DNA from: a bacterium BMS3Bbin13
GTDB lineage: Bacteria; Pseudomonadota; Gammaproteobacteria; 21-64-14
Assembly: GCA_002897735.1 (NCBI GenBank)
Contig: BDTW01000022.1
Location: forward strand, 1-61,230
DNA: 61,230 nucleotides
Direction of reading: 5' to 3'
The notes under the pieces were generated by a model. It was not told the DNA's origin. It did no database searches and saw only the letters and a program-made list of their open reading frames with translations. The position numbers and the translations under genes are program-made. This document shows, piece after piece, positions 2,768 to 5,889 of this stretch; within the stretch, counting starts at the first letter, position 1, and each line of letters opens with the position of its first letter.

Positions 2768-3157
2768 TTACTGTAGAGGGGGTCGCGGATTTTCAAGACG
2801 CGCTTCATCAACTGAATCAAGGAAAAACCATGCTTCTCCCGTTGATTGCAGCCATGACTGGAAGAGATTTTCCCCACCTACCTCAAATGCCTTATAGAAA
2901 TCGGCTTCGATATCCTCGATGCGGATAAAAAAGGACGGCTTGCCTTGACTCGCCAGAACACCTGCCCGTTGCCGAAACTCTTCGGTCTTACCCGCACCTG
3001 CTTCAGCCAAAATCACACAACGATACTCGCGGTCAATATCATCCCATGTCTTTGGTTTGTCATGACCCAAAACTGAAAAGATATCATCGATTTCTCCCTC
3101 TAGTTTATCATTTGGGAGAAGCGAAAATTGTCGGTCTAATAGAACATGACTATCCAT
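2768..3157 (-). pseudogene. 5' fragment of a NACHT-type STAND ATPase (truncated)
   Basis: The 129 residues contain a P-loop AEAGAGKT (51-58) preceded by YRCVIL, and a Walker B region WFFLDSVDEAR (110-120). This is the N-terminal part of a NACHT/STAND NTPase, a class that normally continues for many hundreds of residues through the rest of the ATPase and a sensor region and is often used in anti-phage defence. Here the frame stops nine residues after Walker B (..LENPRPPLQ), about 75 bp from the island end, so the ATPase and sensor are lost. I infer a deletion between the gene and the attachment site near 2780. It starts 9 bp after the preceding gene, as in an operon. A functional short protein is unlikely. 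Confidence 0.75.
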
Positions 3158-3166
3158 TCAAATTCT

Positions 3167-3535
3167 CTATAGTGAGCCCGCGTCTCGGATCTCCTGCAGT
3201 TGGCGCAGGTGCTCAAGGTTCCTCGACGCTGTGTCTCGATCCAGCTTGCGAAGTTTGTCAAAGTAGTACGGGTCGAAATGTGGCCATTTCAATAGCGACT
3301 GCAGCATAGCTCGAAATGACCCCAGCCCTTTGTCAGGGCGTTCCGTCAGCTTATCAAGTATTGTATCGACGACTTCATGGCGCCTGAGCGCATTCTCACC
3401 GTCTATCTTCAGGCAGCTCACTTCAGCTTTGGGGCACCCATGCTTCTCGAGGAATCCTATTATGTCTTTACGGGGCCAGAACAGCGACAGGATGCTGTCT
3501 TTCATACAACCTTGGATGTCTGCGGGAAAACTCAT
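3167..3535 (-). CDS. Hypothetical protein, island operon
   Basis: A 122-aa protein starting MSFPADIQGCM. I do not recognise a characterised family. It is rich in charged residues, predicted mainly helical, has no membrane segment or signal peptide, and ends in a helical stretch (HLRQLQEIRDAG). The motif PHFDPYYFDKLRKLD and the N-terminal LFWPRKDI look like conserved signatures. Its end may be artificially short, because the helix looks as if it should continue. A GTG at 3547 overlapping the upstream stop codon is an alternative start. It lies between the AbiEii-like gene and the NACHT fragment in one transcription unit, which suggests a part in the same defence cassette. Confidence 0.6.
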   Translation of the reverse strand: MSFPADIQGCMKDSILSLFWPRKDIIGFLEKHGCPKAEVSCLKIDGENALRRHEVVDTILDKLTERPDKGLGSFRAMLQSLLKWPHFDPYYFDKLRKLDRDTASRNLEHLRQLQEIRDAGSL

Positions 3536-3546
3536 GTCTTTGCCCA

Positions 3547-4446
3547 CTATTTATAAATTCGGTCAAGTAGTTGCGCAATAATATCGCTGACTTGCCGCTG
3601 CCGTAGAGCTCGTGCTTCACGTCGCTCAGGTTCTTCACTCTCACCCAACTCGAATTTTGCAACTGAAACAGGGCCATCCTTGCGATAGCCTTCTGTCTTT
3701 TCATCATCCGCGAAACGCGTACTCAGAATGGCAAGTGATGCGTCGATGACGGCGCCATGCTTGCCACTACACTCCTTGTGGAATTCCTCGCTCACAGCGT
3801 TGATCCCTTCGGGCGCATGCTCGATGCAATAGATCAAGTCGTGAGCATCCTTACGTTCGAAACGTTGGTCGAACGCGAAGGCCTTTAGACAGGTAAAGCT
3901 GACAAGGTTGGCGTGCCTTATCTTCTCGGTCGTGATGCCGTTACCACCCAGCAGTTCGGCTTTGATCTCGGTGACTTGGTAAAGGTCAAAAACGATGGAT
4001 GAATGCGGAATATTCAGTGCTGAGATCGCACCTTCCGTGGGTAGGGGTTGGACCTTCCCACCAGCAATGTCTGGAGCGTCCGCCAGCAGTTCCAATACCA
4101 TCAGCGCACCATGTTCGGTACGGGTTTGCCATCGCCAAGAGAGCTTCTGTTGTTTTTCATTCTCGGCGCGTTCGAAGCCCATTTTCTTAAGGTTGTCCTC
4201 CAGCGTATGGTAAGCTTCAGTGTCCGCCAGAATTTGTAAATCAATCACAATATCAACATCAAGCGTTCCTGCATGTGCGGGTACTGTTGGCGGCCGCGCA
4301 GCAACGAGGTACCGCGGGGTAAGTCCCCCGACCAGGTAGACTGAATCCTTCCACGGACCTAACCCACGCAACAACGTTACGAGGACACGTTCACAATCCG
4401 CCGTATACTGGTCGCTGTAGCCATCGAGCGTTACAGGTTTGGCCAT
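3547..4446 (-). CDS. AbiEii-like nucleotidyltransferase (putative type IV toxin)
   Basis: A 299-aa protein of the DNA polymerase beta-type nucleotidyltransferase superfamily. The fold is indicated by YLVGGLTPRYL (residues 38-47; helix-capping GG) followed by the metal-binding TLDVDIVIDL with Asp63 and Asp65. A later K188, then R/KDAHDL (198-204), resembles the Lys/Lys-Asp motifs of AbiEii toxins. AbiEii proteins transfer nucleotides to tRNA and cause growth arrest or abortive infection. The start codon overlaps the stop of the upstream AbiEi-like gene (TGATG), the coupling expected for an antitoxin-toxin pair. The C-terminus is charged and may differ from classical AbiEii. Toxicity is inferred. 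Confidence 0.75.
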   Translation of the reverse strand: MAKPVTLDGYSDQYTADCERVLVTLLRGLGPWKDSVYLVGGLTPRYLVAARPPTVPAHAGTLDVDIVIDLQILADTEAYHTLEDNLKKMGFERAENEKQQKLSWRWQTRTEHGALMVLELLADAPDIAGGKVQPLPTEGAISALNIPHSSIVFDLYQVTEIKAELLGGNGITTEKIRHANLVSFTCLKAFAFDQRFERKDAHDLIYCIEHAPEGINAVSEEFHKECSGKHGAVIDASLAILSTRFADDEKTEGYRKDGPVSVAKFELGESEEPERREARALRQRQVSDIIAQLLDRIYK

Positions 4447-5543
4447 CAGAAGCCAATCCTTTCCTTGCGGAAGTGTTCGGCCATTTCTTTAGAGCGGCCT
4501 TCGCCTTGCAACAGATCGAGATAAATCTGGATCGGACTGGCCATCCATAGATCATCAATCCGCTCGCGGAACAACAACTCGCCCGGCGACTTTGCTTCGA
4601 TAATCGCCAGATTGGCGCCTTCATTCACAACCCGCGCTCCAAGGTCTCCGATAGCGGTGTCGGCGTTCGATCCGGCCAGTAGCCGTGCACGCACTTGGGA
4701 AACGTTGGAGAGAAATGGCGTATAACGTTGCGCGGCAGCCTCATGACTGATCGCGTACTCGACGCCATGAGCGTCGAACACTTCTCCGACCCAATTCATT
4801 AAGGTGTCCGGCTTAGCAGCCGGGACGTAATACCGGCGCATGGTGGGCGGGCGGATGGTCGCGAGTTGCTTTACCCATGCATCCAGCAAGGCCGTGGGCT
4901 CGCGAAGATGTCTCTCTTTGCTCGGCCCTTTCCCACGCGACGCCATCCAGTCGAAGCGTTCAAGTCCAGTCAGCACTTGCGAGGCGGTCGCAGGCGATAC
5001 CATCGCATGCTTTGCCAACCCCGTAACACCGAACCAATCCTGGTGCTGGATCAGCAGGCTATGGAGCACCTGCGCTCGTCGACCGGTGAATAGGGAGCGA
5101 ACCGACTTCGCCAGGTTCTTTGGTGGTGGTTTATCGATGTAGAAGTAGGCACCTGGGGCAGGCAGATACAGACTCCCACCGCTGTCGTAGTAACCGACAC
5201 GCTCATTTCTGAGCAGTTCTTTTGCCCCTGTGGAAATAGACTCAGCCACGAGGAAATATAGAGGATCGTTGACCCGAGCCTGCGGCCAGCGGTGGCTTGT
5301 TTCCCGAAACTGCCAGATCACTTGCCTGACATCACGGGGAAAGACAGATTTCTTGACTTCTATGTGCAAAACGAAAGTCTTGCCGGTGACGTTCAGATCG
5401 ACCTCGGCATCATGGACACGGTCACCACCCTGGCCCTCTGGTTCCAAGCGTTCGAACTCCGCATGTACCTCCGGGAGTTCCCGCAGGACATCAACAAGCT
5501 GCCCGACCAACTGGTGTTCACTAAGAGAAGATTTAAGAACCAT
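4446..5543 (-). CDS. AbiEi-like antitoxin/transcriptional regulator with an N-terminal ExK-type domain
   Basis: A 365-aa protein. Residues about 155-215 form a winged-helix segment (GVTGLAKHAMVSPATASQVL) like the DNA-binding domain of AbiEi antitoxins, and the C-terminal half corresponds to the AbiEi C-terminal region. Unusually, the N-terminal 80 residues carry AEVDL (Asp49), HIEVKK (Glu62, Lys64) and WQF (Gln78), a spacing reminiscent of PD-(D/E)xK nuclease folds. Whether it is active cannot be told. The ATG at 5543 is preferred over an in-frame TTG at 5549. It is followed without a gap by the nucleotidyltransferase. Two palindromes around the promoter suggest it represses its own operon. 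Confidence 0.72.
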   Translation of the reverse strand: MVLKSSLSEHQLVGQLVDVLRELPEVHAEFERLEPEGQGGDRVHDAEVDLNVTGKTFVLHIEVKKSVFPRDVRQVIWQFRETSHRWPQARVNDPLYFLVAESISTGAKELLRNERVGYYDSGGSLYLPAPGAYFYIDKPPPKNLAKSVRSLFTGRRAQVLHSLLIQHQDWFGVTGLAKHAMVSPATASQVLTGLERFDWMASRGKGPSKERHLREPTALLDAWVKQLATIRPPTMRRYYVPAAKPDTLMNWVGEVFDAHGVEYAISHEAAAQRYTPFLSNVSQVRARLLAGSNADTAIGDLGARVVNEGANLAIIEAKSPGELLFRERIDDLWMASPIQIYLDLLQGEGRSKEMAEHFRKERIGF

Positions 5544-5550
5544 ATTCAAC

Positions 5551-5570
5551 CATTTACTGTTCAGTGAATA
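5551..5570 (-). promoter_or_regulatory. Operator palindrome O2 at the transcription start
   Basis: ATTTACTG-TT-CAGTGAAT is an inverted repeat with one mismatch and shares its core with the perfect palindrome at 5605-5624. It overlaps the predicted transcription start and ends 8 bp before the ATG of the AbiEi-like gene. A bound repressor here would block initiation. Confidence 0.65.
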
Positions 5571-5575
5571 TACGA

Positions 5576-5604
5576 AGATTAGCGAATATCACGCTATATT
5601 GCAA
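5576..5604 (-). promoter_or_regulatory. Predicted sigma-70 promoter of the AbiEi/AbiEii operon
   Basis: On the minus strand a -35 box TTGCAA (5599-5604) and a -10 box TAATCT (5576-5581) are separated by exactly 17 bp. The start point would fall near 5569, about 26 nt before the ATG. The core promoter lies precisely between two copies of the same palindrome, the layout of an autorepressed toxin-antitoxin operon. Confidence 0.65.
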
Positions 5605-5624
5605 TATTTACTGTTCAGTAAATA
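5605..5624 (-). promoter_or_regulatory. Operator palindrome O1 upstream of the promoter
   Basis: TATTTACTG-TT-CAGTAAATA is a perfect inverted repeat with 9-bp arms and a 2-bp centre, directly upstream of the -35 box. Its centre is 54 bp from that of the second copy, roughly five helical turns, so two dimers would bind the same face of the DNA and could interact. Confidence 0.7.
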
Positions 5625-5871
5625 ATCGGGGTTAGAGGGAAACCAAGTGCTTATAAGCGGCTGTTATTGAGTGAATCAGTAAGGAGCCATGTCGGTTGCG
5701 GCCAACATCAAGTCAACCCATCCAGTCACACCACTACCATCATGAGGTAGTGGTGATTACCTAGGCTTCTGCTAAAAGCTCTTTGTTTTTTAAAGTAAAA
5801 AATCTCATTGATAATTTATAAAATTTATCAAACCATGATTTTATACTTAAATTCAATTAGTTATATGCGAC
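5625..5871. other. AT-rich island end without a gene, containing two inverted repeats
   Basis: No coding region is supported here. A strong inverted repeat CACCACTACC-ATCATGA-GGTAGTGGTG (5729-5755) has a 10-bp perfect stem, but no T-run follows on either strand, so it is not a standard terminator. A second one, TTGATAA-N10-TTATCAA (5808-5831), lies 40 bp from the guaA end. Both are where arm sites for an integrase or excisionase would be expected in an integrated element. That role is a guess from position. Confidence 0.4.
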
Positions 5872-5889
5872 CTATTCCCACTCGATGGT
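5872..5889. repeat. Direct repeat at the guaA terminus (right attachment site)
   Basis: CTATTCCCACTCGATGGT is the last 18 bp of guaA read from the plus strand, coding TIEWE and the stop. It pairs with the near-identical copy at 2677-2694. The target codons are strongly conserved among GuaA proteins, which makes them a reliable integration site, and insertion leaves the gene product unchanged. Confidence 0.75.

Follow-up and report, generated by a model that had tools for sequence, protein, structure and literature searches.

We identified two copies of a palindrome, O1 and O2, upstream of a gene pair on the minus strand of the window (the whole stretch of DNA analysed, 61,230 nucleotides), and comparative sequence evidence indicates that they very probably form a paired operator through which the AbiEi-like regulator encoded at 4446–5543 represses its own operon of two genes (originally three). 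O1 (5605–5624, minus strand) reads TATTTACTG-TT-CAGTAAATA, is complementary at all nine arm positions around two unpaired centre bases, and abuts the −35 hexamer on its upstream side. O2 (5551–5570, minus strand), CATTTACTG-TT-CAGTGAATA, is a near copy that differs from O1 at two positions of the 20-mer, pairs at seven of nine arm positions, and lies over the presumed transcription start and the 5' leader. Both sites are conserved in relatives, and their centres are 54 bp apart, equivalent to 5.14 turns at 10.5 bp per turn. No further site with up to three mismatches to the O1/O2 pattern was found in the window, where 0.00 were expected from the shuffled sequence, nor in the 2.69-Mb genome. 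O1 and O2 were also the best pair in an unbiased palindrome-pair scan of the upstream region, with a score of 26 versus a null maximum of 23, and surpassed each of the 200 dinucleotide shuffles that made up this null. The two palindrome copies with centres 54 bp apart, as reported in the initial annotation, are thus confirmed by direct reading, genome uniqueness, shuffles, and relatives.

On the minus strand, O1 (5624–5605) is followed by the −35 hexamer TTGCAA (5604–5599), a 17-bp spacer, the −10 hexamer TAATCT (5581–5576), O2 (5570–5551), and the regulator's ATG (5543–5541). TTGCAA directly abuts O1, while TAATCT ends 5 bp before O2, which puts the presumed start point at the O2 edge. The earlier description of the palindromes as lying immediately outside the promoter therefore holds for the hexamers but not for the presumed start point. 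The 17-bp-spaced promoter itself, likewise proposed before, stands on column conservation: TTG occurs at the same columns in relatives, as does TAnnAT (TAgAaT in relatives). Against it count the weak −10 hexamer, which matches TATAAT at three of six positions, and the lack of a call by a plain consensus scan, which is explained by this poor −10. Each palindrome would be a complete dyad read by one regulator dimer via the central winged helix. Occupancy of O1 would cover the −35 edge and occupancy of O2 the start point, and two bound dimers would enclose the promoter and thereby exclude RNA polymerase. We infer repression from the position of the operator and by analogy with the AbiE precedent (PMC3985639).

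A survey of 84,980 species, each represented by a single genome, yielded 20 loci with 65–77% protein identity in Burkholderiales, Thauera, Stenotrophomonas, and others, and plasmids accounted for 71 records extending to alphaproteobacteria and gammaproteobacteria. The phage records searched for the system gave no match; two IMG/VR contigs carry it. The gene pair and the double operator are present, at 54% protein identity, on a contig classed as viral (L050, IMGVR_UViG_3300037043_000141). Both palindromes and the 54-bp centre distance were found in all close relatives with the exception of L030, in which O2 has decayed. Across 18 homologous loci, mean identity to the window fell from 84% for the operators to 57% for the linker and to 28%, the random level, for the 60 bp upstream of O1, so that conservation stops at the outer edge of O1. 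On these identities, the candidate operators are a sharp footprint against a background saturated with change. One outer arm is imperfect in several alphaproteobacterial copies, and the unbiased pair scan is conservative, as it misses L036 and L039, which are true members with imperfect arms.

The half-site of the beta/alpha clade is TTYRCTG-NN-CAGYRAA, with TTTACTG among its variants, and divergent relatives (~30% identity) have TTAGCTG, TTATCTG, or TACGCTG. In most of the divergent relatives both arms and both copies change together, which is the trace expected of a dimeric protein reading both arms of both sites. Dyads of such type are bound by many wHTH families, and the link to the AbiEi-like protein is one of sequence association, so another host or island regulator might bind the palindromes instead; we consider this very improbable, given that the pair accompanies the AbiEi-like gene across genera and neighbourhoods (flanking genes differ almost everywhere among relatives), is unique in the genome, and has a half-site that changes with the lineage of the AbiEi-like regulator itself. 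The proposed role of the palindromes as operator of this regulator is strongly supported by their uniqueness in the genome, their fixed spacing, and their linkage to the gene across genera. A strict recognition code at helix residue 187 (A/C/V), with C accompanying TTAGCTG and V accompanying TTATCTG, was rejected because it is broken by L046 and L052; a loose association of residue 185 with the half-site remains.

The centre distance over 39 loci, down to ~30% protein identity, is 54 bp in 26, 55 bp in 11, and 53 bp and 52 bp in one locus each. With a phasing of 5.1–5.2 turns, two dimers would sit on about the same DNA face, so that mutual contact would be feasible, and cooperative binding is plausible, as it would fit both the fixed 54/55-bp spacing and a palindrome at the midpoint. 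A serious, though less probable, alternative is that O1 and O2 are the same operator but act independently, at a constant distance only because one overlaps the −35 hexamer and the other the start point. TTG after O1 and TAnnAT before O2 indeed stand at fixed columns in the window's clade, where part of the fixed spacing could come from the anchoring of both sites to the promoter, but the 54/55 bp also persist in divergent homologues, in whose linkers these promoter columns are missing. A plasmid of Pseudomonas nitroreducens (L044) carries three TTAGCTGNNCAGCTAA-like palindromes upstream of position 2405 in two successive 55-bp steps, which argues that the step is set by the protein and not merely by the promoter. 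Independent sites would have a functional counterpart in Rv2827c, which binds with no or negative cooperativity (PMC7319586), yet would not account for a symmetric element at the exact midpoint.

This midpoint element, M (5584–5591, minus strand), reads TGATATTC in the window and has the consensus GAATATTC in relatives. Its centre is exactly 27 bp from the centres of both O1 and O2 in the window's clade, where it occupies the −35/−10 spacer, normally free to vary, as conserved GAATATTC. Dyad symmetry over the 39 loci peaks at the exact midpoint (5.08 of 10 pairs, compared with at most 3.79 at the other centres tested), and the divergent clade alone has midpoint symmetry with different sequences (permutation p = 0.0002). 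The left half of M is degenerate in the window, which has only four of 10 pairs. M could be a weaker third site, a point contacted by another domain, or a bend. Together, the fixed spacing and the exact-midpoint palindrome suggest one larger repression complex over two independent sites. In a bolder and rather doubtful extension, O1, M, and O2 would together make up a single symmetric operator of 70 bp, and a higher-order regulator assembly on it would close over the whole promoter; M, 27 bp or 2.6 turns away and thus on the opposite face, would be contacted either by an additional dimer or by the nuclease-like N-terminal domains, and the latter could detect DNA that is foreign or damaged and then free the promoter. 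If true, such a 70-bp assembly with DNA-sensing N-terminal domains would tie toxin expression to infection.

The regulator and presumed antitoxin (4446–5543, minus strand; 365 aa) consists of a PD-(D/E)XK-like N-terminal domain, a central wHTH (residues ~150–213), and an AbiEi_2 C-terminal domain, and its ATG at 5543 agrees with the start of homologues. AbiEi_2 (PF09952, which we equate with COG4861) scores 20.3 bits in the window regulator, just below the cut-off of 21, which is passed by homologues L050 (26.7 bits) and L044 (40.1 bits). Full-length comparison with hhalign to a set containing PF09952-positive relatives gave an E value of 1e-38, and by these profile matches the regulator is a member of AbiEi_2 (PF09952). 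The label AbiEi-like given in the initial annotation is accordingly appropriate at the level of AbiEi_2 but not in the sense of a classical AbiEi, from which the protein departs by the extra N-terminal nuclease-like domain and the other operator layout. The wHTH has weak MarR/IclR profile matches. The N-terminal 125 residues have conserved D45...E62-x-K64 and a PRD motif, and their AF2 model matches the PD-(D/E)XK nucleases EndoMS/NucS and MspJI with a Foldseek probability of 1.00 and an E value of only 2e-3; the model of the regulator is poor at residues 137–217. A sequence search against solved structures returned wHTH and weak NucS matches only. Some divergent relatives no longer have K64, which makes activity doubtful in those. 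The PD-(D/E)XK-like domain on the antitoxin (residues 1–125, window 5169–5543) is common to the whole branch, including PF09952-positive relatives.

The second gene (3547–4446, minus strand; 299 aa), whose start codon overlaps the regulator stop, encodes a nucleotidyltransferase and presumed AbiEii-type toxin. It contains GG at 40–41, DVD at 63–65, and K188-A-F-A-F-D-Q-R195, corresponding to the motifs GG...DhD and K..A(arom)..R. The partner had no hit in a direct Pfam search and nothing was retrieved in the solved-structure sequence search; hhalign against a PF08843-positive set gave an E value of 6.7e-17, and the same method ties regulator and partner over most of their length to sets that include proteins passing PF09952 and PF08843. 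The partner's AF2 model has low confidence, and its best fold match is MenT1 (8an4). The third operon gene is a remnant (3167–3547, minus strand) encoding the N-terminal 123 aa of an Mrr_cat restriction endonuclease. This gene is intact in several relatives, 3' of the same pair (e.g., L007, 6000–6914), which suggests that the operon was originally a three-gene defence operon.

The operon lies within a 3.2-kb remnant island between the guaA 3' end and a gene that we take from its sequence to be tadA-like. A 19-bp direct repeat (17 of 19 positions identical) is present at 2676–2694 and 5871–5889, the latter being the guaA 3' end, and the two copies are probably the attachment sites that delimit this remnant defence island beside guaA. 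Beside the operon, 2768–3157 (minus strand) encodes an N-terminal fragment of the HyoA NACHT antiphage protein (NCBIfam NF058534, E 6e-44) that comprises ~120 of 1430 aa and is cut off near the island end. Location inside a small island bounded by direct repeats might suggest that the palindromes are mobile-element leftovers, or else an RNA hairpin, and not protein sites. We regard this as scarcely credible: the palindromes are away from the island ends and conserved without their flanks, O1 is upstream of the promoter and hence outside the transcript, and the 2-base centre between the arms is too short for an RNA loop.

The most distant relatives (25–28% identity; L054, L056, L058, and L055) have TTTCARC-N4-GYTGAAA palindrome pairs, spaced 66 bp in all but L055, where the distance is 99 bp. 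In three of these four loci, the downstream site extends into the start codon. Among core PF09952 loci in a Gammaproteobacteria sample (n = 22), a significant pair was mostly absent, and a few loci had a single palindrome of other sequence. We therefore dropped the notion that the double operator is universal in PF09952 and regard it as a property of the window's branch. Single palindromes, such as GTACATTATTAATGTAC or GTTCAATTTTATTGAAC, were seen at the core PF09952 loci L063, L070, L071, L069, and L076; upstream of these core regulators, they are possibly single operators.

In the literature found, the AbiE-type promoters studied in detail are all from COG5340 antitoxins, and the pair in the window provides a well-defined, evolutionarily tested candidate operator for AbiEi_2 (PF09952), which is a separate branch. 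Its layout differs from theirs, with two dyads separated by a constant 54/55 bp, or by 66 bp in more distant relatives, plus the midpoint element. The site offers an exact 70-bp target for footprinting, in which simple spacing changes make cooperativity testable, and the half-site variants TTYRCTG, TTAGCTG, TTATCTG, and TACGCTG are a natural set for working out winged-helix recognition. Conservation of the nuclease-like N-terminal domain of the antitoxin across the branch raises the question of what this domain senses.

Autorepression has been demonstrated for AbiEi of S. agalactiae, which binds repeats over its own promoter; this operator is one dyad, TGTTGCTTTTA-N27-TAAAAGCAACA, on which AbiEi monomers bind with positive cooperativity, one to each 23-bp arm (PMC3985639). 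AbiEi (COG5340) has two domains, with the wHTH N-terminal, and forms a type IV toxin-antitoxin system with AbiEii (DUF1814) (PMC3985639). The window shares with S. agalactiae AbiE the gene order of regulator first and nucleotidyltransferase second, a wHTH regulator, and repeats that enclose a 17-bp-spaced promoter, but has two complete dyads 54 bp apart instead of a single inverted-repeat pair, and a regulator of three domains with the wHTH in the middle. M. tuberculosis Rv2827c also autorepresses and binds repeats over the promoter; the Rv2827c-Rv2826c operon has four 23-bp repeats, 13 bp apart within and 4 bp between pairs, bound with negative cooperativity (PMC7319586). More than one set of promoter repeats is common to this system and the window, as is autorepression by the antitoxin, reported for Rv2827c and predicted in the window, whereas Rv2827c is described as a two-domain protein without the N-terminal nuclease-like domain. 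The 16–20-bp dyads over a promoter and the weak MarR profile match to the wHTH resemble the operators of MarR-type dimeric winged-helix proteins, but the window regulator is no member of the MarR family and its wHTH is one of three domains. Compared with COG4861-COG4849 pairs, i.e., AbiEi_2 (PF09952) with AbiEii (PF08843), the window proteins are divergent, the half-site is another, and the spacing is 54 instead of 66 bp, but the profile matches are shared and those relatives, too, have palindrome pairs.
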